Of a stretch of 64,000 nucleotides of DNA, positions 255 through 62,056 are shown one piece after another. The notes below the pieces were generated by a model. That model was not told the DNA's origin. It searched no databases and saw only the letters and a list, made by a program, of their open reading frames with translations. The DNA lies in the NCBI GenBank assembly GCA_903923925.1, contig CAIXZF010000097.1, positions 1-64,000 of the forward strand, given 5' to 3'. The position numbers were made by a program, and so were the translations under genes. Every line of letters begins with the position of its first letter. Positions within the stretch are counted from its first letter, which is position 1. Origin of the DNA: an uncultured Bacteroidales bacterium. Its GTDB lineage: Bacteria; Bacteroidota; Bacteroidia; Bacteroidales; CAIXZF01.

Positions 255-3200
255 ATGAAGGCTAAGTTACTGATAACTATTGCTTTAATTGGTTTGATGC
301 ATAATTCTGGCAGCGCACAGTCAATTATTCAGCATTGCACTATTAAGTGGACCGGAGTTAAAAATTTCAGAGAAGCAGACTCAAGTATTCAGGAAATTCT
401 GTTTTTTGAGGGTGCAAATTTTTTATCTGAGTACGGAAACTTACCTGTTTCAATTATTCTTCTTCCATTAAAAGGCGAGACCTTGGATTTGGCAGTAACA
501 TCGTTTAATGCTGTTTATTCTGAACTTGCTCCCGGGGAGCTATCATCAATACCGGATGCAGGACTGTTTAAGGAAGATCTTATTATTACTTCCGGTATAT
601 CTATTGCCAGGAAGGTTGTTAGTGCTCAGATCAACATAGTGCCGTTCAGGATTAATTCTGAGTCAAAGAAAATCGAAAAATTAATATCCTGTGATTTATT
701 GGTTGATCCGACGTATGCCGAAAATTCCTCCTTAAAATCAACTAAAACAACTGGTACACTTCAATCTGTACTCTCAACAGGATCCTGGGTAAAAATGGGT
801 GTTAAGTACAATGGTATTTATAAAATTTCCTATAGTGATCTTATAAACATAGGATTGAACCCCTCAGGAATTGACCCGAGAAATATCAGGATTTACGGAA
901 ATGGTGGTGGTATATTGCCTGAGTCGAATGCCGTTTCCAGATATGACGATCTGGTTGAAAATCCTGTTCAGGTTGTAGGAGAAGAGGACGGAGTTTTTAA
1001 TCAGAATGATTATATACTTTTTTATGGACAGGCGCCCTATAGTTGGAAATACGATGTTAATAAAAAGAAGTTTTCTCACCTTAATAATTATTATTCCGAC
1101 TACTCATATTATTTTATAACTGCAAGTCTAGGAGTGGGTAAACGAGTGCAACCTCAAACTTCAGTAACTTCTGCTGCGAATAAAGTTGTAACTAATTTTA
1201 ATGATTATTCTTTCTACGAGAAGGACGAACTCAACCTTATAAAGTCTGGTAAAGTGTGGTACGGAGAAAAATTTGATCTTAAAAACTCTTATGACCTGAA
1301 CCCGTTCAGTTTTCCCGATATCAACGGAGATAGTTTATGCTATCTTGAAGTTGATGTTGCCGCTAGTTCAACAACTCCAAGTACATTTAAGGTTTATGTG
1401 AATAATGGTGAGGCAATTTCTGCACTGGTACCATCAATTTCACCAGCCTTCAATACGGATTTTGCCATGACAGTAAATTCCAACAGAACCTTCTATCTGA
1501 ACACGCCTGTTACCAACGTAAGAGTAACGTATTTGCCCTCCCTGAGCAGTTCAATTGGCTGGCTTAACTATGTGGAATTAAATGTGGTTCGTCATCTGAA
1601 GCGCTCTGGTGATCAGATGCCATTCCGGAGTATTTCCAGTGTAGGTGCAGGAAATGTAAGTGACTTTATTGTTTCAGATTGTTATACTACGGATGTAATT
1701 TGGGATGTAACAAATATTGAAGACATCCGCAAGCAGGAAACAACATTCCAGAATGGCAATTTACAGTTCAGGTTACCAACTGATATCTTGCGCAACTTTG
1801 TTCATTTTACTGGCAATTCTTTTCTTTCAGTTGATAATTATCAATATGTTTCTAACCAGAATCTGCATGCAACCACTTCCGCTGATATGATTATAATAAC
1901 GGCTCCTGCTTTAATTTCTGAAGCAAACAGACTTGCTGATATTCACAGACTTGAAGACAATATGAATGTTGTAATTACAACACCTCAGGCTATCTATAAT
2001 GAATTTTCTTCCGGAGCCCAGGATATTACTGCAATCAGGGATTACATTAAGATGATTTATCAGCGCTCAACTGTCGGATCCGAATTAAAATATGTTCTTT
2101 TGTTCGGTGATGGTTCGTACGATTACAAAGACCGCATGCCCGACAATACGAATCTGGTTCCTACTTTCCAATCAATGAATTCACTTCGTCCAACTGAGTC
2201 CTATGTTAGTGATGATTATTTTGGTTTGATGGACAGCAATGAAGGAAATGATTGTTCTGGAACACTTGATATTGGGATTGGACGTTTGCCTGTAAAGACT
2301 ATTGATGAAGCTAAAGCAGCTGTTGATAAGATTGTTCGGTACAAAGAAAAAAATGATAATAGCAGTGTTGGATGTAATACTTTTTCTACCAATGTGAAAC
2401 GCCTGGGCGATTGGAGAAACCTGGTATGTTTTGTTGCTGATGACGAGGACAACAATATGCATCTCGACCAGGCAGAAGATCTTTCAACCTATGTTGATAC
2501 TGCATTTAAGGAATACAATGTTGATAAAATATACTTTGATGCCTATCCTCAGTTATCAACACCGGGCGGACAGCGCTATCCTGAAGTTACTGATGCAATA
2601 AATAAAAGAGTTGCTAAAGGTGCATTAATAATAAATTATACGGGCCATGGAGGGGAAACCGGCTGGGCACATGAAAGGATTCTGGAAGTTTCAGACATCA
2701 ACGGGTGGACAAATGAAATGGATTTGCCTGTTTTTGTAACTGCAACCTGTGAGTTTAGCCGATTTGATGACCCCGAACGAACATCGGCAGGAGAATATGT
2801 TTTTTTGAATCCACTTGGAGGAGGTATTGCATTGTACACAACAACCAGGTTGTCCTTTTCCTCGACAAATTTTGCACTAAACATGAACTACTATTATAGT
2901 GTGTTCACTAAAGTTAACGGGGAGTATCAGCGGATGGGAGATGTAATGCGTCATGCGAAAACGCCTTCGAATCCAAACATCAGAAATTTTGTTCTCCTGG
3001 GTGACCCTGCTCTCCGGATAGTTTATCCTGAATTTAAAATAGAAACTTCCACAATTAATGGACATCCTGTCGGCTCAGTTCCGGATACACTAAAGGCATA
3101 TGAAATGGTAGAGATAACTGGGTTTTTGCGGGATGATCAGGGCAATAAGCTAACAGATTTTAATGGAACTCTGTACCCTACAGTGTTTGATAAGCCTGCA

Positions 3201-4118
3201 GAAATTACAACTTTAGCCAATGATGTTGAAAGCCATCAGACTACATTTAAATTGCAAAAGAATGTTATTTATAAAGGAAAAGTAAGTGTTAATAACGGAG
3301 ATTTTGCTTTTAGTTTTGTAGTACCGCGGGATATTGCCTATAAGTATGGCAAAGGAAAAATCAGCTATTATGCCGAAAACGGAGAAACAGATGCAAATGG
3401 TGTTTTCGAGGATTTCATTATCGGAGGTTCTGAATCAAATATCAATATTATTCCTGACTCATTAAATCCGACAATAGATCTTTTCATGAATGATTCGTTA
3501 TTTGAATTTGGAGGAATTACAGATGAAAACCCAATTATACTGGCGTATATAAATGATTTTAGCGGTATAAATACTACAGGAAATGGGATAGGACATGATA
3601 TTGTTGCTGTGGTTGATGGAGAAACTGAGAAATCAATGGTTCTGAATGATTTTTATGAAGCAGACCTGAATAGTTATCAAAGAGGTTCTGTTCGCTATCC
3701 ATTGTTTAGTTTAACCAACGGTTTGCATAACTTAAGAGTGAAAGTATGGGATGTTTACAATAATTCATCAGAGGCTTATACCGAGTTTCTGGTAGTTAAT
3801 TCAGGAGCTCTGGTACTTGAGAATCTTTTGAACTTCCCAAATCCTTTTCGTGATCAGACTTCATTTTCTTTTCAGCATAATCATCCTTGTTGCGAACTGA
3901 ATGTGGAAATTAAAATTTTTAATATGTCGGGGCAGTTAGTTAAAACTATTAATCAGGTTGTTTCAACGGATGGATATAATGGTGGGCCAATAATGTGGGA
4001 TGGCAGTAGCGATAATGGCGCTCCAATATCTAAAGGTATTTATCTTTACAAACTCAGAATTACCACGGAGAGTGGGGAAAGCTTTCAGAAGAGCTCGAAA
4101 CTCGTTGTGCTTAAATAA
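255..4118 (+). CDS. porU: Type IX secretion system C25-family sortase PorU
   Basis: A 1287-residue protein with a signal peptide (residues 1-21, ending ...SGSAQ). PorU is the cell-surface peptidase that removes the C-terminal domain of T9SS cargo and attaches cargo to the outer membrane. The gingipain-type catalytic pair is visible: His798 in YTGHGGETGW and Cys832 in TATCEFSRF. A large N-terminal region (about 1-540) precedes the C25 domain (about 545-930). The C-terminus has a FlgD-like/beta-sandwich segment (FNMSGQLVKT ... GIYLYKLRI). The length matches PorU orthologues rather than secreted gingipains. porV follows 71 bp downstream, the usual T9SS pairing. No gldJ follows, unlike Flavobacterium. 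Confidence 0.93.
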   Translation: MKAKLLITIALIGLMHNSGSAQSIIQHCTIKWTGVKNFREADSSIQEILFFEGANFLSEYGNLPVSIILLPLKGETLDLAVTSFNAVYSELAPGELSSIPDAGLFKEDLIITSGISIARKVVSAQINIVPFRINSESKKIEKLISCDLLVDPTYAENSSLKSTKTTGTLQSVLSTGSWVKMGVKYNGIYKISYSDLINIGLNPSGIDPRNIRIYGNGGGILPESNAVSRYDDLVENPVQVVGEEDGVFNQNDYILFYGQAPYSWKYDVNKKKFSHLNNYYSDYSYYFITASLGVGKRVQPQTSVTSAANKVVTNFNDYSFYEKDELNLIKSGKVWYGEKFDLKNSYDLNPFSFPDINGDSLCYLEVDVAASSTTPSTFKVYVNNGEAISALVPSISPAFNTDFAMTVNSNRTFYLNTPVTNVRVTYLPSLSSSIGWLNYVELNVVRHLKRSGDQMPFRSISSVGAGNVSDFIVSDCYTTDVIWDVTNIEDIRKQETTFQNGNLQFRLPTDILRNFVHFTGNSFLSVDNYQYVSNQNLHATTSADMIIITAPALISEANRLADIHRLEDNMNVVITTPQAIYNEFSSGAQDITAIRDYIKMIYQRSTVGSELKYVLLFGDGSYDYKDRMPDNTNLVPTFQSMNSLRPTESYVSDDYFGLMDSNEGNDCSGTLDIGIGRLPVKTIDEAKAAVDKIVRYKEKNDNSSVGCNTFSTNVKRLGDWRNLVCFVADDEDNNMHLDQAEDLSTYVDTAFKEYNVDKIYFDAYPQLSTPGGQRYPEVTDAINKRVAKGALIINYTGHGGETGWAHERILEVSDINGWTNEMDLPVFVTATCEFSRFDDPERTSAGEYVFLNPLGGGIALYTTTRLSFSSTNFALNMNYYYSVFTKVNGEYQRMGDVMRHAKTPSNPNIRNFVLLGDPALRIVYPEFKIETSTINGHPVGSVPDTLKAYEMVEITGFLRDDQGNKLTDFNGTLYPTVFDKPAEITTLANDVESHQTTFKLQKNVIYKGKVSVNNGDFAFSFVVPRDIAYKYGKGKISYYAENGETDANGVFEDFIIGGSESNINIIPDSLNPTIDLFMNDSLFEFGGITDENPIILAYINDFSGINTTGNGIGHDIVAVVDGETEKSMVLNDFYEADLNSYQRGSVRYPLFSLTNGLHNLRVKVWDVYNNSSEAYTEFLVVNSGALVLENLLNFPNPFRDQTSFSFQHNHPCCELNVEIKIFNMSGQLVKTINQVVSTDGYNGGPIMWDGSSDNGAPISKGIYLYKLRITTESGESFQKSSKLVVLK

Positions 4119-4189: not shown

Positions 4190-5425
4190 ATGCTCAGACC
4201 AGCGTTCAAATTTTACGGTATAATTGTTTTATTATTGGTTTTGGCTGGAAATCAAGGTTTTTCCCAACCAAAAGGCTTACAGATTGGTACAGTTAACGGT
4301 AATGAACTGAATACAATAACTACAGCAGTTCCTTTTTTAATGGTAGCCCCGGATTCAAGATCGGGTTCTATGGGAGATGCCGGAGTTTCTTCCACTCCTG
4401 ATGCTAATTCAATGCATTGGAATCCGGCCAAGTTTGCTTTTATTGATAAAGAAATGGGATTCAGTGTTTCATATAGTCCCTGGCTAAAAGCACTTGTAAA
4501 TGACATTAACCTTGCCTATATTACAGGTTACAAAAAACTAAATGATGAGTCGGCATTCGCTGCCTCACTTTTATATTTCTCCTTAGGTGACATTACATTT
4601 ACGAATGAAATAGGAGTTGAAACAGGAAATTATCGCCCGAATGAATTCGCAATAGATGCTGCCTATTCGAGAAAGTTTACAAATAATCTGGCGATGGCAG
4701 TAACCGGAAGGTATATTTATTCTAATCTTACACAAGGACAATTCGTTGGAGGACAGGAAACACATGCAGGGAAATCTGTAGCAACAGATATTTCTCTTTA
4801 TTATCAGAAAAAACTAAGCTTCAAAAATAAAGTAAAAGGCCTTTGGGCATTAGGAATGAATATCTCAAATATTGGCGCTAAAATTTCTTATACCCAAAGT
4901 ACTGAGAGGGATTTTATTCCAACCAATCTGAGGATAGGGCCATCACTTACCCTTGATCTTGATGATTTCAACAGGATTTCTTTTATGGTTGACTTTAATA
5001 AACTTTTAGTTCCTTCACCTCCGAAATACCTGGTAAATGATTCAACAGGACTTCCTGAACACAGTCCAAATGGAGACCTGATCATATCCAGTGGGAAAGA
5101 TCCCAATGTTGGTATTGTTAAAGGAATGATGCAATCTTTTTATGATGCACCCGGTGGAAGTCAGGAAGAAATGAGAGAAATTAATTATTCGGTCGGCGTT
5201 GAGTATTGGTATGATAAACAATTTGCAATCCGTGGTGGTTATTTCCATGAAAACAAGACTAAAGGAAATCGTAAGTTTTTCACACTTGGTGCTGGCTTAA
5301 AATACAATGTATTTGGTCTTGATTTTGCCTATCTGATCCCTGTAGAACAACGTAATCCACTGGAGAATACTATTCGCTTCTCCTTATTGTTTGACATGGA
5401 CGCATTCAACGATCAGAACAAATAA
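4190..5425 (+). CDS. porV: T9SS outer-membrane shuttle protein PorV (LptO)
   Basis: A 411-residue predicted outer-membrane beta-barrel of the FadL-like PorV family with a signal peptide (about 1-25, ending GNQGFSQ). PorV binds T9SS cargo leaving the Sov translocon and brings it to PorU. Family-typical features are the N-terminal FLMVAPDSRSGSMGDAG motif, SMHWNPAKFAF, and alternating beta-strands ending in an aromatic strand (FSLLFDMDAF). It follows porU, and ispF starts directly after its TAA (the ATG is the next base), so porV and ispF are probably co-transcribed. Confidence 0.94.
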   Translation: MLRPAFKFYGIIVLLLVLAGNQGFSQPKGLQIGTVNGNELNTITTAVPFLMVAPDSRSGSMGDAGVSSTPDANSMHWNPAKFAFIDKEMGFSVSYSPWLKALVNDINLAYITGYKKLNDESAFAASLLYFSLGDITFTNEIGVETGNYRPNEFAIDAAYSRKFTNNLAMAVTGRYIYSNLTQGQFVGGQETHAGKSVATDISLYYQKKLSFKNKVKGLWALGMNISNIGAKISYTQSTERDFIPTNLRIGPSLTLDLDDFNRISFMVDFNKLLVPSPPKYLVNDSTGLPEHSPNGDLIISSGKDPNVGIVKGMMQSFYDAPGGSQEEMREINYSVGVEYWYDKQFAIRGGYFHENKTKGNRKFFTLGAGLKYNVFGLDFAYLIPVEQRNPLENTIRFSLLFDMDAFNDQNK

Positions 5426-12359: not shown

Positions 12360-13844
12360 TTGGTAATTTCAGTTCAATTGAAATGGATAAATAACCTTAC
12401 CGTGCTAAAAAACAATGATATTCAATTAGTAATGACTAAGGCTGCGAATGCAGCTCGTGAATTTGGTCAATTTAATCAGGAACAAACTAACCGGGTATTA
12501 AAGGCAGCCTACGAAGCAGGATTTAATCAGAGAGTGAGGCTTGCCAAAATGGCGTTCGAAGAAACAGGAATTGGCAAGTGGGAAGATAAAGTCATTAAAA
12601 ATGTGATAGCAACAAGGTATGTTTATCGCGACATTGCTAACATGCAATCAGTAGGGATTCTCAGTGAAGATGAGGCTAGTGGTATAGTACAGATTGCCAG
12701 GCCAATAGGTCCAATATTTGCTGTTACACCCATTACCAATCCAACAAGCACGGTAATGTTTAAAATTCTGATTGCTTTAAAAACCAGAAATCCAATCATA
12801 ATTTATCCTCACGGTGCAGCAAGAAATTGTTCGGTGGAAGCTGCAAGAATTTGTTATGAAGCTGCTGTGGATGCCGGTGCTCCTGAAAATTGTGTACAAT
12901 GGGTGAAAAGGGCTTCGCGTGAAGAAGTAATTCAACTTATGGGACATAAACAAACAGCACTTATTCTGGCAACAGGATCTGTAAGTCTGGTGAGAGCAGC
13001 ATATAGTTCAGGGAATCCTGCAATTGGGGTAGGACCTGGGAATGTTCCGGTTTATATTGGAAAAACGGCCGATGTTTCAAGTACAGTTAGTCAGATACTT
13101 TCATCAAAAACCTTTGATAATGGAACAATTTGTGCCAGCGAGCAGGCGGTTGTTGTTTCGAGGTATAATGCGAAAGAAGTAAAGGCGGAATTTATTCGTC
13201 GTAAAGCCAGGTTTTTGAATGATGAAGAAATTGCGAAAATTGAGCCAGTTGTTTTTAGCAGAGCGAATAAAGTCATGAATGTGGAGGTAATAGGGAAACC
13301 CGCATATGTTATTGCAAAAATGGCAGGTATCGATGTCCCTGAAGATACAAGTGTTTTAATTGCCCCTTTGGGGGATAAAGTGGGTCTGGATTCACCCTTA
13401 AGTCTTGAAATTCTGGCACCAGTACTTGCATATTATGAAGTCAACAGCTTTCAGGAAGGTATTGAAATGTGTCGGAAAATTAATATTCATGGAGGATTGG
13501 GACATACAGTAAGTATTTTTTCAAATGACGATGATAAAATACGGTATTTCGCTGCGGAAATGAACGCGGGGCGTGTACTTGTTAACACTCCAGCTTCGCA
13601 AGGTGCGCTTGGAGGTGGTTTTAATGGTTTGCAACCTTCACTAACATTAGCTTGTGGGGCAGGCGGAAAAAATATCACTACTGATAATATTTCTGCCAGA
13701 CATCTTCTGAATATTCAGAGGATAGCCTATCGAAAAGAAGACAGATGCGCAATTTGCGATGAGGACCTATATTCAAATGAGTCTCTTACTGCTGCTGTTG
13801 TGGAGGAAGAATGTGAGAAACGGTATCGTTTACAACAGAAATAA
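12360..13844 (+). CDS. CoA-acylating aldehyde dehydrogenase (AdhE N-domain/EutE type)
   Basis: A protein of up to 494 residues of the acylating aldehyde dehydrogenase family, which turns an aldehyde, CoA and NAD+ into an acyl-CoA. It has the cofactor-site [11 protein letters not shown], the catalytic Cys258 in [11 protein letters not shown], and the C-terminal [11 protein letters not shown] and [13 protein letters not shown] motifs typical of AdhE/EutE. A Cys-containing tail follows ([13 protein letters not shown]). The longest reading starts with TTG at 12360; GTG at 12402 or ATG at 12432 may be the true start, so the first 14-24 residues are uncertain. It leads an operon with a glycyl radical activase and enzyme. 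No alcohol dehydrogenase half is fused, and no microcompartment shell genes are present. Confidence 0.9.
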
Positions 13845-13877
13845 ATCCTTTTAGAAAATAAATCCTCAACACAATTT

Positions 13878-14666
13878 ATGAAAGGCATTATTTTCGATAT
13901 AAAACGGTTTTCAACAAATGACGGACCAGGAATAAGAACGACTGTTTTTTTAAAAGGATGTCCTCTGGCATGCTGGTGGTGTCATAATCCTGAAAGTCGT
14001 TCAGCTGGCATACAGGAGTTTTCTGTTGGTTCAAGTTCTAAAACACAAACTATAAAGAGGATTGGGGAATGTTGGAGTGTTGATGATCTTTTGGTGGAGC
14101 TTGAAAAAGACAGAGTTTTTTTCGAGGAGTCGGGTGGTGGCATTACGTTTAGTGGGGGAGAGCCATTAATGCAATTGGATTTTTTGATGGCCCTTGCAAA
14201 CGGATGTAAAAAGCGAGGTATTCATACAGCTATAGATACATGTGGGTTTACAGATTTTGGGAATTTTGATTTGCTCCTTGACAAAATCGATTTATTTCTA
14301 TACGATTTCAAACAAATTGATGAGATCATCCATCAAAAATATACAGGTGTTAGTAATAATCAAATTCTGGAGAACCTGAAGTTTTTGCATTCAAAAAGTG
14401 TTAATTTGGTTTTAAGAGTGCCGTTTATACCCGGAATTAATGATTCAGAAAATGATATTAGTAATATGGTTTTATGGATGAATGAAAATACCCCATCATT
14501 CAAAGAGATCCATTTGCTGCCGTATCATAGTTTTGCAAAAGCAAAATATCATAAGTATGGCTTTGAAAATAAATTAGCTGAACTGCCTGAGATTTCGGAA
14601 TCTAATTTATTGGAAGTAAAGCGATACTTGATGCGAAATGGATTTAACGTAAAAATTGGAGGTTGA
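13878..14666 (+). CDS. Glycyl radical enzyme activase (radical SAM), short form without ferredoxin-like insert
   Basis: A 262-residue radical SAM enzyme that abstracts a hydrogen from the glycine of its partner enzyme. The [4Fe-4S] motif is Cys28-x3-Cys32-x2-Cys35 (CPLACWWCHNPES), and GGGITFSGGEPLMQ gives the SAM-binding GGE. Most non-PFL activases carry 50-70 residues with two extra clusters after HNPES. Here only about 26 residues, with one Cys (Cys65), lie between HNPES and the next conserved segment (WSVDDLL), so those clusters cannot form. It starts 33 bp after the aldehyde dehydrogenase stop and ends 5 bp before the downstream ATG. Confidence 0.94.
   Translation: MKGIIFDIKRFSTNDGPGIRTTVFLKGCPLACWWCHNPESRSAGIQEFSVGSSSKTQTIKRIGECWSVDDLLVELEKDRVFFEESGGGITFSGGEPLMQLDFLMALANGCKKRGIHTAIDTCGFTDFGNFDLLLDKIDLFLYDFKQIDEIIHQKYTGVSNNQILENLKFLHSKSVNLVLRVPFIPGINDSENDISNMVLWMNENTPSFKEIHLLPYHSFAKAKYHKYGFENKLAELPEISESNLLEVKRYLMRNGFNVKIGG
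14658..14662 (+). promoter_or_regulatory. Strong Shine-Dalgarno site (GGAGG) that sets the glycyl radical enzyme start
   Basis: GGAGG lies 9 bp before the ATG at 14672 and inside the last codons of the activase gene. This favours ATG 14672 over the in-frame TTG at 14663. Such a clear site is unusual among the genes of this window. Confidence 0.7.
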
Positions 14667-14671
14667 TACAT

Positions 14672-17005
14672 ATGAATGAAAGAATTCAAAAATTGCGGCT
14701 ACAGAGCTTGAATGCGGAATATAAAATTTCGGCGGAACGTGCACTCCATGTTACCGAATTTTATAAAACCCCATCCAACTATGGTTATTCAGTTCCGGTT
14801 CAGCGAGCGTTGTGTTTTAAATATATTCTTGAGAATAAAAAGATATGTATACTTGAAAATGAGTTAATTGTTGGAGAGAGAGGGCCAGCACCGAAAGCAA
14901 CTCCCACCTACCCTGAAGTCAATCTCCATACAATTGAGGATCTTAAAGTGCTTGATTCAAGGCAAAAAGTATTTTTTAAAGTTGATAGTGAAACAATAAT
15001 AGCCTATAGGGATATAATTATTCCTTTCTGGCAGGGCCGAAGCCATCGTGAGCGAATGTTGCATCAAATGGATGAGTCGTGGTTAGATGCTTACGCTGCT
15101 GGTGTTTTTACCGAATTTCAGGAACAAAGAGCCCCAGGCCATACTGTATTAGGGGACAAGATCTATAAGCAGGGCATGTTAGAGATTATTACCGAAATTG
15201 AAAGAACAATAGAAAAACTGGATTTTTTCAATGATCCGGAGGCCTATAGCAAGAGAGAAGAACTTAGGGCTATGGCAATTTCGGCGGAGGCTCTGATTAT
15301 TTTTGCAAGGAGACATGCTGATGTATTAGATTCTGAAGGAAGGAGTGATTTAGCGGAAATTTGTAGAAGAGTGCCAGCATATTCACCTCGAAACTTTCAT
15401 GAAGCCCTTCAGTATTATTGGTTTGTTCACCTCGGAGTTATTACGGAACTTAATCCCTGGGATTCTTTTAATCCCGGTCGGCTCGACCAGCACCTTTTTC
15501 CATTCTATCAGGGAGGACTTGAGGAAGGAACTTTATCAAAAGAATCTGCTAAAGAGTTACTTGAGGCATTCTGGATTAAGTTTAACAACCATCCATCTCC
15601 TCCCAAAGTGGGCATTACTGCGTTGGAAAGCAACACCTACACCGATTTTGCGCTGATTAATCTGGGAGGATTAAAGGAAGATGGCACAAATGCAGTAAAT
15701 GAATTAAGCTTCCTGATGCTCGATGTTATTGAGGAAATGCGTTTAGTTCAACCTAGTTCGATGATTCAGTTAAGCAATAGAAATCCGGATAATTTTCTCC
15801 ACAGGGCACTAAACATAGTTAAAACCGGATTTGGGCAACCTTCAATATTTAATACAGATGCAATTGTTGAGGAGTTGGTTAGACAAGGTAAATCTATTGA
15901 AGATGCAAGAAATGGGGGTGCCAGTGGTTGTGTCGAAAGTGGGGCTTTTGGCACAGAGGCATATTTTTTAACTGGATATTTCAATATAACAAAGATTCTG
16001 GAGATTACCTTATACAATGGGATCGATATACTTTCAGGTAAATTAATTGGATTGAGAACAGGAGATCCAAAGGAATTTTCCAGTTTTGAAATGTTGATGA
16101 ATGCATTTAAAAGTCAGCTTAATTATTTTATTGATATTAAAATAAAAGGGAATAATATTATTGAACAACTTTTTTCTGTCTTTTTACCAGTACCCTTTCT
16201 TTCAACTCTGATTGAAGATTGTATAAGTAAAGGTAAAGATTACAATTCTGGAGGAGCTCGTTACAATACAAGTTATATACAAGGAGTTGGTTTAGGAAGT
16301 GTTACAGATTGCCTGGCTTCATTAAAATACAATGTGTTTGATAAGCAGCATATTACAATTGAAGAAATTCTCAAAGCAATGAAGAATGACTTCATAGGAT
16401 ATGAAGGTATGCGATTTGAATTGATAAGGAATTCGCCAAAATACGGGAATGATGATGACACTGCTGATGATCATGCCAGGAAAGTATTTGAGCTGTTCTA
16501 TGATTCAGTGAATGGTAGGCCAACTGCCCGTGGAGGCACATTTAGGATAAACTTACTACCGACCACCTCACATGTTTATTTTGGTTCGAAAATTGGGGCG
16601 ATGCCAGATGGTCGCAAAGCATACGAACCTTTAAGCGAAGGAATCTCACCTGTTCAGGGAGCTGATCTCAAAGGACCAACAGCAGTACTTAAATCGGCTG
16701 CCAAGATAGATCAGCTGAAAACCGGTGGAACATTGCTGAATCAAAAATTTACGCCTTCGTTCTTCAAGGATGAGCAGAGTATACTATTAATTGCGAGCCT
16801 GGTTCGGGCTTATTTCAAAATGGACGGGCATCATATTCAGTTTAATGTTGTTTCTGCGGATATACTCAGAGAAGCACAGAAATATCCTGAAAAGTTTCGT
16901 GATCTTATTGTTCGCGTTGCGGGGTATTCCGATTATTTCAATGATCTGGGAGAAGACTTACAGAATGAAATCATTCGCCGGACTGAACATAATGGTCCTG
17001 TATGA
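14672..17005 (+). CDS. Glycyl radical enzyme, trans-4-hydroxy-L-proline dehydratase (HypD)-like
   Basis: A 777-residue glycyl radical enzyme. The radical glycine is Gly751 in RVAGYSDYF, and the thiyl cysteine is Cys420 in GASGCVESG with Glu422 two residues later. From memory of C. difficile HypD, its active-site residues all have counterparts: Phe149, His157 (RAPGHTV), Asp264 (WDSF), Asp325-Phe326 (YTDF), Cys420, Glu422, Tyr436 (LTGYF) and Gly751. Long stretches around them also match. HypD removes water from hydroxyproline to give pyrroline-5-carboxylate, which opens to glutamate semialdehyde. The expected P5C reductase is not adjacent; a CoA-acylating aldehyde dehydrogenase is. The substrate may therefore differ. 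CutC, PFL and diol dehydratase are less likely from the GCVESG...TGYFN segment. Confidence 0.85.
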   Translation: MNERIQKLRLQSLNAEYKISAERALHVTEFYKTPSNYGYSVPVQRALCFKYILENKKICILENELIVGERGPAPKATPTYPEVNLHTIEDLKVLDSRQKVFFKVDSETIIAYRDIIIPFWQGRSHRERMLHQMDESWLDAYAAGVFTEFQEQRAPGHTVLGDKIYKQGMLEIITEIERTIEKLDFFNDPEAYSKREELRAMAISAEALIIFARRHADVLDSEGRSDLAEICRRVPAYSPRNFHEALQYYWFVHLGVITELNPWDSFNPGRLDQHLFPFYQGGLEEGTLSKESAKELLEAFWIKFNNHPSPPKVGITALESNTYTDFALINLGGLKEDGTNAVNELSFLMLDVIEEMRLVQPSSMIQLSNRNPDNFLHRALNIVKTGFGQPSIFNTDAIVEELVRQGKSIEDARNGGASGCVESGAFGTEAYFLTGYFNITKILEITLYNGIDILSGKLIGLRTGDPKEFSSFEMLMNAFKSQLNYFIDIKIKGNNIIEQLFSVFLPVPFLSTLIEDCISKGKDYNSGGARYNTSYIQGVGLGSVTDCLASLKYNVFDKQHITIEEILKAMKNDFIGYEGMRFELIRNSPKYGNDDDTADDHARKVFELFYDSVNGRPTARGGTFRINLLPTTSHVYFGSKIGAMPDGRKAYEPLSEGISPVQGADLKGPTAVLKSAAKIDQLKTGGTLLNQKFTPSFFKDEQSILLIASLVRAYFKMDGHHIQFNVVSADILREAQKYPEKFRDLIVRVAGYSDYFNDLGEDLQNEIIRRTEHNGPV

Positions 17006-17546: not shown

Positions 17547-17912
17547 TTAAAAATTAATCCTGCCGGAATGTGAATTTTGATTTCTCCTGATTATCTCATC
17601 CAGAACGGCATCAAATTCCATTCTGAGAAAAATAAAACCGGGATTGAATTCTTCATAGGTTGCGGACAATAAGTCGAGCCAATAAATTGCTTTGAAGCAT
17701 TCATTATCGAGCAGCCGGAGTTGCTCATAATAGGATGCACCGGCTTGTCCTTTAATTGCCATGTGTTTGGCTCCAAGTTCCCCAGCTGATTTAACGAGCT
17801 GACTTTTAATAATCTGGATTTCCCTTTTCCCATGGATTTCAGCACATAAACTTAAGGTGCCGAAAACAAGGTCGTCGATTTTTTTCTGATTTTGAATTCT
17901 GTTTTTTTTCAT
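17547..17912 (-). CDS. Four-helix bundle protein (23S rRNA intervening-sequence protein-like)
   Basis: A 121-residue, wholly helical protein. The pattern IIKSQLVKSAGELGAKH, then KAIYWLDLLSATYEE and a C-terminal helix (EFDAVLDEIIRRN) fits the four-helix bundle/IVP family (usual length 110-130), though it is divergent: the canonical R-S-x-x-S-x-x-A-N motif reads KSAGELGAKH. Members often occur singly in Bacteroidota and their role is unknown; some are encoded in 23S rRNA insertions. No rRNA is nearby. Confidence 0.78.
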   Translation of the reverse strand: MKKNRIQNQKKIDDLVFGTLSLCAEIHGKREIQIIKSQLVKSAGELGAKHMAIKGQAGASYYEQLRLLDNECFKAIYWLDLLSATYEEFNPGFIFLRMEFDAVLDEIIRRNQNSHSGRINF

Positions 17913-18064: not shown

Positions 18065-19966
18065 ATGAGCGAACAGATTAAGCATGAATGTGGCATTGCC
18101 CTGGTACGTCTGCTCAAACCGCTTGAATACTATCTTGCTAAATACGGCACTGCACTTTATGGACTGAACAAACTTCATCTATTGATGGAGAAACAGCATA
18201 ACCGTGGGCAGGATGGGGCAGGGATGGCATGTATTAAATTCGACATTGATCCGGGAAAAAAGTATATTAACAGAGTAAGGTCAAATGATGCTAACCCTAT
18301 TGATGCCATATTCAAAAGTATATACGACAAGGTAAAGGATATAAATAAAAAGAGTCCTCAGCGTTTGCAGGATATTGGTTGGCTCAAAGATAACATTGAC
18401 TTTACCGGAGAGCTATTCATGGGGCATTTACGTTACGGCACTTATGGAAAAAACAGTGTAGAGAATTTACATCCTGTAATGCGCACAAACAACTGGATTA
18501 CACGTAATCTGGTTCTTGCCGGCAACTTTAACATGACGAATGTTTCTGAGTTATTCCAGCACTTGATTGATCTGGGGCAGTATCCAGTTCAAACCTCAGA
18601 TACAGTTACAATACTTGAAAAAATAGGTCATTTTCTGGATGAAGCGAATGAAGCTATTTATCGGAAGTTTAAAGAACAAGGACTTGAGAAGAAAGATATT
18701 TCACCATTAATTGCACAGAATCTGAATGTTCAGTCTATTTTGACAAGAGCTTCAAAACATTGGGATGGGGGATATGCTATTGTTGGAATGTTCGGTCATG
18801 GAGATGCATTTGTAATGCGCGATCCTTCGGGAATTCGTCCGGTTTATTATTTCCATGATGATGAAGTAATTGTTGCTACTTCTGAGCGTCCGGCAATTCA
18901 AACGACTTTTAATATTCCTTATGAATCAGTTAAAGAGTTAACTCCGGGTAAAGCATTGATTATTAAAAAGGATGGATCTTTCGGTGAACATGTTTTCAGA
19001 GAACCAGAGGTTCAAAAGTCGTGCTCATTCGAACGGATTTACTTCTCGAGAGGTACAGATAAGGATATTTATCAGGAAAGGAAAAATCTCGGAAAGCACC
19101 TTGTACCAGCAGTTCTGGAAGGAATTGACTACGATATAGGGCATACCGTTTTTTCATATATTCCAAATACAGCAGCAGTAGCCTTCTATGGATTGCTTGA
19201 AGAGCTGAATACTTTCTGTGTTAAAGTTCAGAAAGAAAAAATCCTTGCGCTAAAGGATAATATTACGGCAGAAAAATTAGATGAAATTCTATCTTTCAGG
19301 CCTCACACTGAGAAAGTTGCGGTTAAGGATGCTGCCCTGAGAACTTTTATTACCAATGATATACAGCGCGATGATCTGGTAGCCCATGTGTATGACATTA
19401 CATACGGAACAATCAGAAAAAATGTTGACAATCTTGTTGTTATCGACGATTCAATTGTAAGAGGAACTACATTGAAGCAGAGTATTCTCAGGATACTTGC
19501 GCGATTGGAACCAAAGAAAATAGTAGTAGCTTCTTCAGCACCTCAAATCCGTTATCCCGATTGTTATGGGATTGACATGGCAAAATTAAGTGATTTCGTT
19601 GCTTTTAATGCTGCAATCGCGCTTTTACATGATACGGGGCAGAAACATGTAATAAATACAGTATATAAGAAGTGTAAGGAGGCAGTTGGTAAGAATGGGG
19701 ATAAAAGTATTAACCATGTTAAAGCCATTTACAAACCGTTTACTGCAAATCAGCTTTCAGATAAAATTTCAGAATTACTAACTCCAAAAGGAATAATTCC
19801 TGAAATCCAGATCATTTATCAAAAGATTGAAGATCTTCATGAAGCTTGTCCTGAACATTTGGGAGACTGGTATTTTACAGGAGATTACCCAACACCGGGA
19901 GGTAACCAGGTTGCAAACCGGTCTTTTGTTAATTTTATTGAAGGTAAATACGAAAGAGCTTATTAA
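18065..19966 (+). CDS. purF: Amidophosphoribosyltransferase (PurF), long Bacteroidota form
   Basis: A 633-residue enzyme for the first step of purine synthesis (PRPP plus glutamine to phosphoribosylamine). It starts MSEQIKHECGIA, so Cys9 would become the N-terminal nucleophile after removal of an 8-residue propeptide. The class II glutaminase domain (about 9-290) has RGQDGAG and GHLRYGTYG; the phosphoribosyltransferase domain holds the PRPP loop VVIDDSIVRGTT (about 457-468). It is about 150 residues longer than E. coli PurF, with extra C-terminal sequence (ending HEACPEHLGDWYFTGDYP). Cysteines in the second half might hold a cluster as in Bacillus PurF, but this is not certain. Confidence 0.9.
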   Translation: MSEQIKHECGIALVRLLKPLEYYLAKYGTALYGLNKLHLLMEKQHNRGQDGAGMACIKFDIDPGKKYINRVRSNDANPIDAIFKSIYDKVKDINKKSPQRLQDIGWLKDNIDFTGELFMGHLRYGTYGKNSVENLHPVMRTNNWITRNLVLAGNFNMTNVSELFQHLIDLGQYPVQTSDTVTILEKIGHFLDEANEAIYRKFKEQGLEKKDISPLIAQNLNVQSILTRASKHWDGGYAIVGMFGHGDAFVMRDPSGIRPVYYFHDDEVIVATSERPAIQTTFNIPYESVKELTPGKALIIKKDGSFGEHVFREPEVQKSCSFERIYFSRGTDKDIYQERKNLGKHLVPAVLEGIDYDIGHTVFSYIPNTAAVAFYGLLEELNTFCVKVQKEKILALKDNITAEKLDEILSFRPHTEKVAVKDAALRTFITNDIQRDDLVAHVYDITYGTIRKNVDNLVVIDDSIVRGTTLKQSILRILARLEPKKIVVASSAPQIRYPDCYGIDMAKLSDFVAFNAAIALLHDTGQKHVINTVYKKCKEAVGKNGDKSINHVKAIYKPFTANQLSDKISELLTPKGIIPEIQIIYQKIEDLHEACPEHLGDWYFTGDYPTPGGNQVANRSFVNFIEGKYERAY

Positions 19967-19986: not shown

Positions 19987-21162
19987 CTACATAAGTTTCT
20001 GATAAACTTGCCACCATCTGTTTGGAAGTTCATCGGTACATGCTGTTTGATAGTCCTGATAGGAGCATGGAACCAGGTAATGCCGCTCATACTTACTTTT
20101 CATACTGGTTTGAACGGGGACTTCCATCCACCAGCGGTCGCTTTTTTTGCTTTTAAAGAAAACCAACTCGTCTTTATGGCCAGAAATTGTAACCAGGTAT
20201 TTGACATAGTTCTCTTTATCTTTTAATGGAAAATCTTTCTTTCTTCCATAATAGCCCTCAAAGAAATACCAAATTGCCTGAGCAACAAGGTGAGAAGTTT
20301 GGCCGTGATGATCCATCAACGGATTGACTTCATAAAATCCGATAGACGAAAGCTTGTCACTTAGACCGGCATATCGCACAATCTGGCATAGTTCCTCACC
20401 GTTGAATCCATTTGGTGAAGCATTTCCATTACCGGGAGCATCGCTTTGCCTGACAGCACTGATGTCAATAGACAGCATGTCAGCATTTCTTACAATAGGT
20501 TCAACTTCTTCCATATTGGCTCTGACTTTTCCAAGGCGGTAGGCGTCGAAGAACAGATTGTTCATGAGTTTAATGGCATCCTGATCTGCAAAATAGGATT
20601 GGTAGCCAATATTAGCATAGTTGAAAAGATAATTCGGCAGGTGAAGAATTATTCTGCTCAAATAGGATTGAGAATCATTTTCTTCATCTGATTTACCAAG
20701 ATCAAAGCAGGAATCTACAGAAACGATGTTGATTATTTGACCAAGATCTTCGTAGGCTTTGTAATTAGCGAACGTCAGATCCTGGCTGCCACCGATAATA
20801 ACCGGAACGATTCCGGCTTTAATCAATTCGCTTACAACATGAGTGAGCGCAAAATAGGTATCGTCAATGTCAAATCCCTGTTTAAGGTTTCCCAGATCAA
20901 CAACTTTTGGAATTGTTTGTCCGGGAAACAGACGATAAAGGAAATCTCTTACAAAATCAGGTGCCTGAGCACAACCTTTGTTATTAACTCCGTTTCTGTC
21001 TTCCTTAACGCCAATAATTGCTAAATCAATGTCAGAAACATCGGGGAAGTTATTCTCATTAACGAAACTGCGGATGACATCTCCCATCCGTTTTCGTTGT
21101 CCCTTTTCCGCATAGCGGAATTGAAGGAATTCGACTGGTTCAAAATATACCGACAGATCCAT
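19987..21162 (-). CDS. Arginase/formimidoylglutamase-fold protein with degenerate metal site
   Basis: A 391-residue protein of the ureohydrolase (arginase, agmatinase, HutG) fold. The three metal motifs are present in position but altered: GGSQD instead of GG[GD]H[SD] (His to Gln), SVDSCFD instead of DAHxD (His to Cys), and SIDISAVRQSDAPG instead of SxDxDxxDPxxxP (second Asp to Ser). Most of the Mn ligands are thus missing or replaced, so normal ureohydrolase activity is doubtful. About 80 extra N-terminal residues and a long C-terminus are typical of a Bacteroidota group annotated as formimidoylglutamase. It is encoded 31 bp downstream of topA on the same strand and converges on purF. Confidence 0.8.
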   Translation of the reverse strand: MDLSVYFEPVEFLQFRYAEKGQRKRMGDVIRSFVNENNFPDVSDIDLAIIGVKEDRNGVNNKGCAQAPDFVRDFLYRLFPGQTIPKVVDLGNLKQGFDIDDTYFALTHVVSELIKAGIVPVIIGGSQDLTFANYKAYEDLGQIINIVSVDSCFDLGKSDEENDSQSYLSRIILHLPNYLFNYANIGYQSYFADQDAIKLMNNLFFDAYRLGKVRANMEEVEPIVRNADMLSIDISAVRQSDAPGNGNASPNGFNGEELCQIVRYAGLSDKLSSIGFYEVNPLMDHHGQTSHLVAQAIWYFFEGYYGRKKDFPLKDKENYVKYLVTISGHKDELVFFKSKKSDRWWMEVPVQTSMKSKYERHYLVPCSYQDYQTACTDELPNRWWQVYQKLM

Positions 21163-21193: not shown

Positions 21194-23527
21194 TTAACTT
21201 TTCTTTTTGGCTGCAGTCCTGTTTGTTTTAGATTTTGTTGGACCACCCTCATCCATTATTTTTTTACAATCATCAAAACTCAAAGAAGCAGGATCTTGAC
21301 CTTTTGGGATTTTGTAATTGCTTTTGCCAAAAGATATATATGGGCCATATCTGCCTTCAAGTACTTTTAGCTTTGGTTCCTCAGGATATTCCCTGATAAG
21401 GCTTTTCTCTGCAAGCTCTTTTTTCTCCAGAATCAGTTCGACGGCTCTTTCAATTGTGATTGTGTTAGGGTCATCAGTCTTTTTGAGAGAATAAAAAACG
21501 CTTTTATGTCTGATATATGGACCAAATCTGCCAATTCCGACGTTGATTTCCTCATCTTCATACTCTCCAATTGATTTTGGCATTTTAAAAAGTTCCAATG
21601 CTTCATCAAGAAGAATTGTATCAATTCCCTGTTCTTTAGGTAGTCGTGCAAATTTAGGTTTGTCTTCACTTTCAGTTTCACCAAGCTGAACCATAGGGCC
21701 GTATTTGCCGATTTTAACAAATACTTTTCTGTTAGAAACGGGGTCTATACCCAGTAAACGCTCACCTGAAAATTTCTGAGATGTTGTATTTGTATCCTCA
21801 ATTTGTTTGTGGAAGACTGTATAAAACTCCTTAATCATTTCATTCCACACCTTCTGTCCGGCGGCAATTTCGTCAAATTCCTTTTCAACATTTGCAGTGA
21901 AGTTGTAATCTATAATATTTTCAAAATACTGCATCAGAAATTTGTTAACAAGCATGCCAAGGTCACTTGGTACTAATTTCCCTTTTTCGTAACCTGCTTT
22001 TTCGGTTTTTGCACTTTCCTTTATCTTATTGTTTTTCAGTGCAATATAGGAGTAATCGCGTTTGATTCCTTCTTTATCCTGCCGTGTAACGTATTCTCTT
22101 TTCTGGATTGTAGAAATTGTAGGGGCATATGTAGAAGGGCGGCCAATGCCGAGTTCCTCTAATTTTTTAACAAGACTTGCCTCAGTATACCGGGGTGGAG
22201 GAGTGGTAAACCTTTGAATTGCCCTTATTTCATCATTTTTAAGGACATCCCCAGACTTCATTGGAGGAAGAATTCCTTCACCATCATTTGCTTCATCATC
22301 GTCCGTAGATTCCATGTAAACTTTAAGAAATCCATCGAATTTTATGACTTCGCCACGAGCGGTAAATTTTTCTTTCGTTGTATTGATATCAATAGCAACA
22401 ACAGTTTTTTCGAGTTGGGCATCAGCCATTTGTGAGGCGATCGTGCGTTTCCAAATCAGGTCATACAGCCGTTGTTGAGAAGAATCTCCGGAGATGGTTT
22501 GATTTTCCATGTAGGTAGGCCTGATGGCTTCGTGTGCTTCCTGGGCTCCTTTTGATTTGGTTGTATATTGTCTGGTTTTAACGTATTCAGCACCGAATTG
22601 CTTTGTTATTTCCTCTTTGGCCATTCCAAGTGCAGTATTCGACAGATTAACACTATCGGTACGCATATAGGTTATTTTTCCACTTTCATATAACTGTTGG
22701 GCGGCAACCATAGTTTTAGAGACAGAAAAACCAAGTTTTCTTGATGCTTCCTGTTGCAGAGTTGAGGTAGTGAATGGTGGTGCAGGCGATTTTTTTGAAG
22801 GTTTGGTTTCAACAGATATTACTGTGAAACTGGCCTCAACGCATTTCTCAAGAAAAGCCAGTGCTTCTGCTTTTGTTTCGAACTTAGTTGAAAGTTCAGC
22901 TTCAACTTTTGCAAGGCCATCAGCTGTTTCAACGAGGAAATCACCAACAACTCTGTAAGCAGATGTGCTGCTAAATGCTTTAATATCCTCTTCACGTTCT
23001 GAAATTAGTCTTACAGCAACAGATTGAACGCGACCTGCCGATAATGAAGGTTTTACTTTTTTCCAAAGTAATGGAGAGAGTTCAAATCCAACGAGGCGGT
23101 CGAGTACACGACGAGCCTGCTGAGCTTTAACGAGATTGTGGTCTATCCCACGAGGATTTTCAATAGCGGCAAGGATTGCTGATTTTGTAATCTCGTGAAA
23201 AACAATTCTGCGGGTCTTGCTTTCATCAAGGCCGAGGGTTTCTACAAGATGCCAGCTAATGGCTTCTCCTTCGCGGTCCTCGTCGGAAGCGAGCCAGATG
23301 ATTTCAGAATCCAGACAAGTTTTTTTTAATTCAGCTACTATCTTTTTTTTCTCAGCTGCTATTTCATAATTCGGCAAGAATCCGTTATCGATATCCACAC
23401 CAAGCTGCTTTTTAGAGAGGTCTCTTACATGCCCAAAACTCGATCTGACAATAAAATCCTTGCCCAGAAATCCTTCTATGGTCTTGGCTTTAGCAGGTGA
23501 CTCAACAATTACCAGGTTTTTTCCCAT
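21194..23527 (-). CDS. topA: DNA topoisomerase I (type IA)
   Basis: A 777-residue topoisomerase that relaxes negative supercoils. The TOPRIM domain (1-115) has the Asp-rich metal site SDEDREGE (81-88). The catalytic Tyr287 is in GKITYMRTDS. The GRPSTYAPTISTI motif of domain II/IV follows. The C-terminus lacks zinc ribbons and instead has several GRFGPYI/GRYGPYI-type repeats, then a Lys-rich tail (KKKS), which is typical of Bacteroidota TopA. A -7 box lies 29 bp upstream. Confidence 0.96.
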   Translation of the reverse strand: MGKNLVIVESPAKAKTIEGFLGKDFIVRSSFGHVRDLSKKQLGVDIDNGFLPNYEIAAEKKKIVAELKKTCLDSEIIWLASDEDREGEAISWHLVETLGLDESKTRRIVFHEITKSAILAAIENPRGIDHNLVKAQQARRVLDRLVGFELSPLLWKKVKPSLSAGRVQSVAVRLISEREEDIKAFSSTSAYRVVGDFLVETADGLAKVEAELSTKFETKAEALAFLEKCVEASFTVISVETKPSKKSPAPPFTTSTLQQEASRKLGFSVSKTMVAAQQLYESGKITYMRTDSVNLSNTALGMAKEEITKQFGAEYVKTRQYTTKSKGAQEAHEAIRPTYMENQTISGDSSQQRLYDLIWKRTIASQMADAQLEKTVVAIDINTTKEKFTARGEVIKFDGFLKVYMESTDDDEANDGEGILPPMKSGDVLKNDEIRAIQRFTTPPPRYTEASLVKKLEELGIGRPSTYAPTISTIQKREYVTRQDKEGIKRDYSYIALKNNKIKESAKTEKAGYEKGKLVPSDLGMLVNKFLMQYFENIIDYNFTANVEKEFDEIAAGQKVWNEMIKEFYTVFHKQIEDTNTTSQKFSGERLLGIDPVSNRKVFVKIGKYGPMVQLGETESEDKPKFARLPKEQGIDTILLDEALELFKMPKSIGEYEDEEINVGIGRFGPYIRHKSVFYSLKKTDDPNTITIERAVELILEKKELAEKSLIREYPEEPKLKVLEGRYGPYISFGKSNYKIPKGQDPASLSFDDCKKIMDEGGPTKSKTNRTAAKKKS

Positions 23528-59844: not shown

Positions 59845-60693
59845 ATGAAAAAGATCATCACAGCCATCGACTTTTCAAGATGCTCGATACATGCACTCGA
59901 ATACTCCATTAACCTCGCCAATACTGTTGAAGCTGATATAGTTATGGTCTGGGTTGATGCTTCAGAATCAGACTCTGAAATGGCAATTGTAAGCAGAGAA
60001 CATCGTCATGAAACAAAACTTCAGTTCGAAGAACTTATCGAAAAATATGCTCCTGAACTGAAGACTGGGCAACTCAGCTATAAAATCCGCAAGGGCAAAG
60101 TATATCAGGAAATTTCAAATCAGGCAAAATACGATGATGCCATTTTGATTATCACGGGATCTCATGGTGTGTCGGGCTTCGAAAAATTCTGGATCGGCAG
60201 CAATGCATTCAGGATCGTTAGTTATTCGCCATGTCCTGTTCTTACAGTCCGTCTGGCATTCGATTTTAAACCTCAGATTAAAACAATTGTTGTACCTATC
60301 GACAGTACAGGCGATACCCGTCAAAAGGTTCCTTATATCGTTAGATTGGCCAAGTTTTTCGATAGTGAAATTCATATTCTTGCAATTTATTCTACTTCAA
60401 TTCAGGCTATCCAGAAGAAAGTTGATATTTATGTTGAGCAAACTGCGAGATTTATACACGAGCATGGAGTAAAGTTCAAAGCTGAAGTTATCCAGGCCGA
60501 CAATATAACCAATGCGATAATTACATATTCAGAAAATGTTGATGCCGATCTGATCAGCATCATGACAGAGCAAGAATCATCTGCAGCTAATTTCCTATTA
60601 GGACCTTATGCCCAGCAGATGGTAAATAATTCACCAATTCCAATACTGGCAAGCCAGGCGAAAGAATTTCAGAAGATAAGGGCTGAATTTTAA
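59845..60693 (+). CDS. Tandem-domain universal stress protein (first copy)
   Basis: A 282-residue cytoplasmic protein with two UspA domains (about 1-140 and 145-275). Domain 1 carries the ATP-binding signature G-x2-G-x9-G-S in GSHGVSGFEKFWIGS; domain 2 lacks it (TEQESSAANFLLGPYAQQ). It ends 11 bp before the SPOR-like gene. A near-equal length paralogue is encoded at 61208, so the pair arose by duplication. Usp proteins act in stress survival, with no known reaction here. Confidence 0.92.
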   Translation: MKKIITAIDFSRCSIHALEYSINLANTVEADIVMVWVDASESDSEMAIVSREHRHETKLQFEELIEKYAPELKTGQLSYKIRKGKVYQEISNQAKYDDAILIITGSHGVSGFEKFWIGSNAFRIVSYSPCPVLTVRLAFDFKPQIKTIVVPIDSTGDTRQKVPYIVRLAKFFDSEIHILAIYSTSIQAIQKKVDIYVEQTARFIHEHGVKFKAEVIQADNITNAIITYSENVDADLISIMTEQESSAANFLLGPYAQQMVNNSPIPILASQAKEFQKIRAEF

Positions 60694-60703
60694 TAAGGTT
60701 TAT

Positions 60704-61159
60704 ATGACAAAGCAGGCTGCACGATTATTTCTGTTTGTTGTATTACTTTCAGGCCTGCTGCATTCCCTGAACGCTCAAAACAATGTCTCCCAGGGGAAAT
60801 TGGAAATTATACAGGATTCCAGGATGAATTTACTTCTCGAAAAGCACATACAACTGAATGCTGTTATACCAGGTGTTATGGATGGATATCGTATCCAGAT
60901 TTTTTTTGATTCAGGTAATGAATCAAAAAAAAGGGCAGTCGACATCCGGGTCGATTTTCTCAATCGTTTTCCGGGTATTCCTGCATATCTTTCGTTTCAG
61001 GAGCCCTTCTTTAAAATACGTACGGGCGATTTCCGTTCAAAACTGGAGGCAGATGGTTTCCTTCAGAAAATCCTTCCGGTTTTTCCAAATGCATACATTG
61101 TACGCGACAGAATTAACTTCCCGCGCATCGAAGTTCCGGAAATCATCATGAACCATTGA
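60704..61159 (+). CDS. Secreted SPOR-like protein
   Basis: A 151-residue protein with a signal peptide (about 1-24, ending LHSLNAQ). The C-terminal half fits the SPOR fold: GYRIQIFFDSGNESKKRAV, then PAYLSFQEPFFKIRTGDFR and AYIVRDRI. SPOR domains bind denuded peptidoglycan at the division site. The core alignment is weak, so peptidoglycan binding is inferred. It sits between two universal stress protein genes on the same strand, with an 11-bp gap to the first. Confidence 0.78.
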   Translation: MTKQAARLFLFVVLLSGLLHSLNAQNNVSQGKLEIIQDSRMNLLLEKHIQLNAVIPGVMDGYRIQIFFDSGNESKKRAVDIRVDFLNRFPGIPAYLSFQEPFFKIRTGDFRSKLEADGFLQKILPVFPNAYIVRDRINFPRIEVPEIIMNH

Positions 61160-61207
61160 TTTTAGCATTTTCTTGTACTATATTTACCACTGCAAACACG
61201 ATTCATT

Positions 61208-62056
61208 ATGAGACCTATTGTTGTTGGAATTGATTTCTCAGATTGCTCAGTTAATGCTCTTGAGCATGCAATTTCTATCGCACAGAAAGCCCAGCTTGAC
61301 ATTGTGCTGGTGTGGGCAAAAAAACCGGAAGATGCAGAACCTGAATTTCTTAAAACAGGTAAAAATGCCTTAGTTCTTGTAGAGGAACAAATTGGTAAAC
61401 TGATTGAAAAATATCAGCCAATGTTGCCGGATAGCACCATTACATACCATATACGTAAAGGCAAACCTGCAAAAGAGGTTGTTGCTGAAGCTGCTGAGCA
61501 GAATGCATTTATGATTGTGGTAGGTACTCATGGATCCTCTGGCTTCGAGGAAATGTGGATTGGAAGCAATGCAAACAAAATTGTCTCAAACTCTCCTTGT
61601 CCTATTATTACAATTAGGGGAGGAGTAAGCATTGGAAGAGAATTGGCCCATATCGTCCTTCCAATCGATTGTACTATTGAGACCAGGCAGAAAGTGCCGT
61701 TTACTGCGGTAATGGCTAAGCTCTTTAATGCTGAAATTCACGTTGTACTTATACTTACATCAAAAGTAAGCACCATCAGAAGACAAGTTGAAGAATATGC
61801 CGAACAGGCAATTAAATATTTCCACGAGAATAAAATCAAGTACAGAGTGGAGTATCTGCAAACCAAAAATGTAGTGGATGATGTTATAGCATATGCAACT
61901 AAAGTTGATGCTAATCTCATTTCAATAATGACAGAAATGGAGAAATCTGCAAGCAATCTCTGGTTGGGAAGCTATGCTCAACAATTCGTTAATCATTCAC
62001 CATTTCCCGTTTTAACCGTTCATGCCAAACAAATGATGGTAGCACAGACTGTCTGA
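61208..62056 (+). CDS. Tandem-domain universal stress protein (second copy)
   Basis: A 282-residue paralogue of the protein at 59845, the same length and with the same two-domain plan. Domain 1 has G-x2-G-x9-G-S in GTHGSSGFEEMWIGS; domain 2 (TEMEKSASNLWLGSYAQQ) lacks it. It converges on dnaX with a 3-bp gap. The 48 bp before it contain TATATTTACC, a weak match to the -7 box, so it may have its own promoter. Confidence 0.92.
   Translation: MRPIVVGIDFSDCSVNALEHAISIAQKAQLDIVLVWAKKPEDAEPEFLKTGKNALVLVEEQIGKLIEKYQPMLPDSTITYHIRKGKPAKEVVAEAAEQNAFMIVVGTHGSSGFEEMWIGSNANKIVSNSPCPIITIRGGVSIGRELAHIVLPIDCTIETRQKVPFTAVMAKLFNAEIHVVLILTSKVSTIRRQVEEYAEQAIKYFHENKIKYRVEYLQTKNVVDDVIAYATKVDANLISIMTEMEKSASNLWLGSYAQQFVNHSPFPVLTVHAKQMMVAQTV

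Follow-up and report, generated by a model that had tools for sequence, protein, structure and literature searches.

An arginase-fold protein family of Bacteroidota that appears to have lost half of its binuclear metal centre, and its setting among topA and type IX secretion genes

What does a protein do that has kept the fold of the arginases and exchanged part of the residues with which those enzymes hold their metals? The question is raised by a gene at 19987..21162 (-) of the window, by which we mean the whole stretch of 64,000 nucleotides analysed here, from an uncultured Bacteroidales bacterium. The ORF starts with ATG and encodes 391 residues; judging from its sequence, with no signal peptide seen by eye, the product is probably cytoplasmic. 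Pfam Arginase (PF00491) matches it at 98.7 bits, where the cut-off is 22, and its AlphaFold2 model (pLDDT 87.5, pTM 0.90, from an alignment of 14 sequences) finds HutG structures as its top fold matches, the best being Trypanosoma cruzi formiminoglutamase 4myn (Z 37.9, rmsd 1.8 over 278 residues), in whose structural alignment the arginase fold spans residues 21-308 of the model. By sequence and by fold alike, then, the protein belongs to the ureohydrolase (arginase) superfamily, and the original prediction was right that the fold had been retained around the altered metal site. Our answer, developed below, is that this pseudo-ureohydrolase is very probably not a binuclear hydrolase, and we tentatively favour a role as a binding protein.

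Metal ligands and the enzyme name

The six ligand columns were read from alignments to relatives and to Bacillus subtilis HutG (3m1r). We take them to be H101, D124, H126, D128, D232 and D234 in arginase I numbering, and we likewise assume that residues can be assigned to the A and B metal sites as in arginase I. In the window protein these columns hold Gln127, Asp150, Cys152, Asp154, Asp233 and Ser235, within motifs that read GGSQD (Gln127), VDSCFD (Asp150, Cys152 and Asp154) and SIDIS (Asp233 and Ser235). Each of the three replacements named beforehand is present. The histidine of the first metal motif is Gln127 (20782..20784 (-), placed by the family alignment in the column of His101 of arginase I), that of the DAHxD motif is Cys152 (D150-S-C152-F-D154, 20701..20715 (-), with Asp150 and Asp154 kept), and the second aspartate of the SxDxD motif is Ser235 (D233-I-S235, 20458..20466 (-), with Asp233 kept). 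The claim that most metal ligands had been replaced is slightly overstated, in that the replacement is real but affects only three of the six; Asp150, Asp154 and Asp233 remain, and the full six-ligand set for two metals is not there. Gln127 by itself says little, because B. subtilis HutG has Asn in this column of the alignment and T. cruzi HutG has Asn114 at the same place, 4myn being by its title the N114H variant. The decisive losses are those of the two B-site ligands, at Cys152 and Ser235.

Are these losses a peculiarity of one genome? Relatives were gathered from the same order and phylum and from named genomes, the latter represented by the best 80 of at least 590 confirmed relatives. 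The 121 loci put into the large alignment gave 117 ORFs (L001, L206, L218 and L229, which had no usable family ORF, were left out), and with 71 earlier sequences these made 188 rows, of which 180 are distinct, as some named loci repeat other sampled genomes. The rows divide into 171 that carry a C-terminal domain, discussed below, and 17 ordinary arginase-family proteins of the phylum that do not; the 17 were used out of 18 fetched comparison loci, which were chosen as family-profile matches not covering the extra domain, and not by their ligands. Both B ligands, the DAHxD histidine and the second SxDxD aspartate, are kept in all 17 ordinary relatives and in none of the 171 family rows, so that in the Bacteroidota relatives sampled the loss is fixed, the point that the alignment proposed with the original prediction was meant to check. 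Family rows retain two to four of the six ligands, counting Asn as equivalent to His in the first column. The Gln127 column holds Gln in 138 of the 171, His in 20 and Asn in 11, while Asp150, Asp154 and Asp233 are kept in 166, 156 and 166 rows respectively. All three occur together in 155, so for the majority of lineages the pocket must still count for something. The B columns look very different: His is found in only seven rows at the Cys152 column, which holds 17 residue types, and Asp in only four at the Ser235 column, exactly those that lack the three other aspartates. The idea that the ligands have moved to other residues finds no support in the sequence, and on that ground we set it aside: no column of the alignment takes over for either Cys152 or Ser235, and the Cys152 column itself is a mixture. 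As far as sequence can tell, decay has struck the B half of the binuclear centre, and the A half has mostly been held, usually with a new first residue. This makes the family a pseudoenzyme case in which one half-site has drifted to many residues and the other has mostly been kept.

A half-site so often retained could still be catalytic. A single-metal enzyme might bind one Mg2+, Ca2+ or Mn2+ ion through Gln127, Asp150, Asp154 and Asp233 and act, together with Glu278, on some substrate, and the frequency of the three aspartates and of Gln at the first place would suit it, as would the presence of Glu278 in 145 of 171 rows. In the other 26, however, this position is Asn, Gly or Ser, and the arginase mechanism relies on a hydroxide held between two metals, which has no place in a half-site. 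Other evidence on this alternative comes from the divergent lineages described in the next section.

The original prediction expected databases to call the protein formimidoylglutamase and considered that name misleading, and we agree. The nearest NCBIfam model is indeed hutG (TIGR01227), whose 229.15-bit cut-off is far above the 104.1 bits scored here, and the agmatinase (TIGR01230, 45.3 against 174.3) and arginase (TIGR01229, 23.2 against 227.6) models fall short of their cut-offs as well. The original prediction placed no histidine-degradation genes near; in a genome search for hutU and ftcD (glutamate formimidoyltransferase), each was found once, on contigs other than the window's. The ftcD route of histidine breakdown works without HutG, so in a genome with both hutU and ftcD the pathway need not use it. 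Might the protein nonetheless be a divergent but active HutG with a shifted ligand set? Its nearest model and its top fold matches are HutG, and the first ligand is not constant among HutG proteins themselves, but the score far under the cut-off, the want of any substitute ligand column in the alignment, the HutG-free route open to this genome and the loss of the pocket in two lineages (f9 and f24, below) leave this reading barely credible. With a score so far below the hutG cut-off, and with hutU and ftcD elsewhere, the name formimidoylglutamase would mislead, and since the nearest curated family is HutG (EC 3.5.3.8), metabolic reconstructions can be misled with it. A possible instance is Mariniflexile, for which a passage of PMC11278836 gives the histidine pathway as 'not detected except for formiminoglutamase'; we infer from that passage that the present family may have been taken for HutG. 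We found no description of the family in the open-access literature searched, a result of little weight given that most subscription papers, and preprints, fall outside its scope.

The C-terminal domain and lineages without the pocket

A FastTree phylogeny of the arginase domain places the 171 family rows together in a single clade (local support 0.933, stem branch 1.23), and they share residues that the ordinary relatives do not. A family-specific stretch at residues 205-227 (FDAYRLGKVRANMEEVEPIVRNA; 20482..20550 (-)) contains Arg209, Glu221, Pro222 and Arg225, each found in 99-100% of the 171 rows and variable in the 17 ordinary relatives. Cys259 and Trp298 are fixed and variable in the same manner; Gln188 and Gly252 are common in the ordinary relatives too. 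The family has also gained a C-terminal domain, which lies beyond what the original prediction observed, as do the combination of Gln with retained A-side aspartates and the topA and type IX neighbourhood. This domain covers residues 304-391 (about 88 residues; 19990..20253 (-)), is absent from the 17 ordinary relatives, and has F335, W344, W345, C366, Y371 and W383 as invariants in a 38-sequence alignment, the first five of these also counting among the residues fixed in the family. Modelled alone from residue 303, it reaches a pLDDT of 79.2. Nothing convincing was found for it among PDB sequences (best E 0.16), or for its model by Foldseek (best E 1.5) or VIA-align (best Z 3.0), and its best Pfam match on its own is VERL_C, at E 0.0036 and below that family's cut-off. 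The domain may possibly be a new fold; because its model is only moderate, the missing fold match says little either way.

We next asked which parts of the protein are held when the pocket is not. The conserved set comprises 43 positions, each present in at least 95% of 167 rows, with lineages f24 and f9 excluded from the choice; 12 lie in residues 1-185, 20 in 186-303 and 11 in 304-391. Lineage f9 consists of two 330-aa versions encoded beside topA (L240 and L241, in genomes G589 and G652). They keep 2 of the 12 conserved positions of residues 1-185, and this first half is either gone or unrecognisable as arginase, a Pfam search of L240 no longer finding the arginase domain. Over residues 186-303 the two proteins keep 18 and 16 of the 20 conserved positions, and over residues 304-391 they keep 10 of 11. 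This lineage shows that the later parts of the protein, its second half and its C-terminal domain, can stay conserved once the pocket is lost. In lineage f24 (L213, L214, L216 and L217) the A-side aspartates have become Ser, Ser and Asn, and conserved positions are kept at 9 of 12, 14 of 20 and only 4 of 11 across the same three parts. One f24 pair, L216-L217, is unsaturated, with a dN/dS of 0.03 at a dS of 0.83, and the protein therefore seems to be under selection without its A-side aspartates. Most dN/dS pairs are saturated, among them the f9 pair (0.14 at a dS of 2.7), which cannot be relied upon, so that purifying selection on the family is indicated in the one pair that is measurable. 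As f24 has diverged overall, most visibly in the C-terminal domain, a change of function is conceivable there, and we give this branch less weight than f9.

How do these lineages bear on a single-metal enzyme? That the three aspartates were lost together in f24 is what one would expect if they cooperate. On the other hand, f9 has shed the pocket region and still retains most conserved residues elsewhere, and the f24 pair is under strong purifying selection with no such aspartates to protect. Together with the variability of Glu278 and the mechanistic objection above, this makes an enzyme of that kind unlikely. Taken together, the conservation in f9 and the retention of the A side elsewhere speak against a binuclear hydrolase and, with less force, in favour of binding; the evidence leans towards a binding protein chiefly because f9 lost the pocket and kept most of the other conserved residues. 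We propose, tentatively, that the family works as an adaptor or scaffold whose binding surface would be made up of the C-terminal domain and residues from about 186 to 303. What is left of the metal site in most lineages, the half-site of Gln127, Asp150, Asp154 and Asp233, might then hold a single structural metal ion, or else a small ligand, which could stabilise or tune binding.

Neighbourhood and co-occurrence

If the protein binds something, its neighbours may offer a hint as to what. The gene sits after topA, as originally noted: topA (21194..23527 (-); TIGR01051, 694.5 bits against a cut-off of 456.4) is directly upstream on the same strand with a gap of 31 nt, and the two probably share a transcript. 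The next ORF downstream in the window is convergent. Gene contexts were compared in named genomes (from the best 80 of at least 590 relatives) and in others, the window included, a few genomes occurring in both sets; the context of L108, whose gene was missed by the simple ORF picker, was left out of the counts. Among contexts with an upstream ORF, the gene immediately upstream is topA in 62 of 76 named ones (best 80 of at least 590) and in 29 of 46 others, and a different ORF takes that place in the remaining 14 of the 76. For downstream genes, one example each of GldK, GldL, GldM, GldN and PorP was identified with NCBIfam and the rest with cluster-built profiles. The linkage to type IX core genes is conserved, with porP downstream in 27 of 73 named contexts (again from the best 80 of at least 590) and either porP (10) or gldK (7) in 17 of 46 others. 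The gap to topA is short, with a median of 41 nt, and the longer one to porP or gldK (median 159 nt) could mean that a separate promoter drives the secretion operon. The porP-gldKLMN operon of the window's own genome lies on another contig (C35), and the linkage is therefore absent there; the window itself does carry porU, the type IX secretion sortase (255..4118 (+); NF033707, 1349.4 bits), and porV, a type IX secretion outer-membrane protein (4190..5425 (+); NF033710, 509.1 bits). At L259 (G016:C3:421000-440000), topA is followed directly by gldK-L-M-N, and among ORFs of at least 90 aa both the arginase-like gene and porP are missing in between.

Several other genes of the window caught our attention. 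The region 12360-17005 (+) encodes a glycyl radical enzyme, trans-4-hydroxy-L-proline dehydratase (1203.2 bits against a cut-off of 1100); it also holds the gene of a glycyl-radical activating enzyme and one that resembles acetylating aldehyde dehydrogenases. A 633-aa class II glutamine amidotransferase at 18065-19966 (+) resembles PurF but scores far under the purF cut-off (124.5 bits against 350), and is possibly a divergent PurF paralogue. For the 121-aa ORF at 17547-17912 (-) neither Pfam nor NCBIfam gives a match at E 0.001; its sequence suggests a possible four-helix bundle, of the type known from rRNA intervening sequences. At 59845-62056 (+), two similar 282-aa genes, read from their sequence as putative universal stress proteins, flank a 151-aa ORF, and the relative L095 shows the corresponding clusters in the same arrangement.

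To see how far the family follows the secretion system, we scored 295 genomes of the order, taking a match at E of 1e-40 or better as strong and counting 19 weaker matches as absent. A type IX marker was PorV over its cut-off (269 of 295 genomes) or, among the 26 PorV-negative genomes, GldM over its cut-off (10 of 26). Strong matches to the family occur in 200 of the 295 genomes, 198 of them among the 279 with a type IX marker and 2 among the 16 without (Fisher p 4e-6, uncorrected for ancestry). The two marker-negative carriers are the f9 genomes, with no PorV over the cut-off and no GldM match. Conversely, 81 of the 279 marker-positive genomes have no strong match, and three genomes outside the order (f31) have GldM present and no family match. 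The type IX system does not require the gene, and since the gene is missing from those 81 genomes and present in two marker-negative ones, we reject it as a strict type IX marker. A partner exclusive to the type IX system is also disfavoured, because the f9 genomes keep the gene beside topA with neither PorV nor GldM.

This last observation would suit a protein whose service is to DNA supercoiling or to topoisomerase I and which is kept through the topA operon, with the secretion genes as mere neighbours. topA is the most constant neighbour, at a short distance, and the adjacency holds in f9 genomes that have no type IX markers. Yet G016, the genome of L259, has topA and no strong match, the 14 named loci (of 76, from the best 80 of at least 590) with another ORF upstream weaken the tie, and unrelated genes are often transcribed together; we regard this explanation as rather improbable. 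We return to a non-hydrolytic adaptor of the ureohydrolase superfamily, tied to the type IX secretion neighbourhood, which as a whole is the explanation we put first, and do so tentatively, at somewhat less than an even chance. Its job might be to support type IX secretion, whose porP-gldK-L-M-N operon so often follows, and of this part we are less sure. It is tempting to go further and imagine a Bacteroidota-wide type IX factor in which the dead ureohydrolase half-site senses an ion or small molecule and the extra domain docks the GldL/GldM motor or another core part, an idea that we think rather doubtful in this specific form. If the type IX link holds, an enzyme name has been masking a conserved factor.

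Likeness to known systems

With the type IX system the family shares a place on the chromosome, as the frequent immediate upstream neighbour of the porP-gldK-gldL-gldM-gldN operon; it is not among the NCBIfam-modelled type IX components that we saw, and is missing from many type IX genomes. HutG (TIGR01227; 3m1r and 4mxr) has the same arginase fold and the same A-side aspartates, whereas the window protein has no B-metal ligands, carries an extra C-terminal domain and scores far under the HutG cut-off. A further relative in kind is the arginase-like protein of Trypanosoma brucei, which we take to be the subject of PDB entries 4rhi-4rhq. It is described in a title cited in PMC11271267 as having no binuclear manganese cluster, and by that title it resembles our family in being arginase-like with the cluster missing; it differs in belonging to a eukaryotic lineage, with weak sequence similarity (E 0.0028 or worse).

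Passages of PMC11271267 also describe MetCb (MfmB), a metal-free arginase-fold subunit of metformin hydrolase, as a pseudoenzyme. This precedent suggests that the window protein, too, could join an active ureohydrolase in a hetero-oligomer, as its pseudo-subunit, and such a pair would be possible in the window's genome, which has one other arginase-family (PF00491) gene, for an agmatinase-like protein. That gene lies on a different contig, though, and 9 of 41 carrier genomes, drafts included, have no other arginase-family gene, for which reason we reject a partner paralogue as a general feature; pairing of the MetCb type is not general, and we consider it very unlikely to explain the family. 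The structural alignment of our model with 8x3g ends at model residue 309, from which it would follow that the C-terminal domain is not shared with MetCb/MfmB. On the evidence of those passages, MetCb/MfmB (8ryi, 8x3g) resembles the present family as an arginase-fold pseudoenzyme, in its case one that has lost metal binding, and the two part ways in that MetCb works beside an active paralogue, whereas the proteins described here occur also in genomes where none is found.
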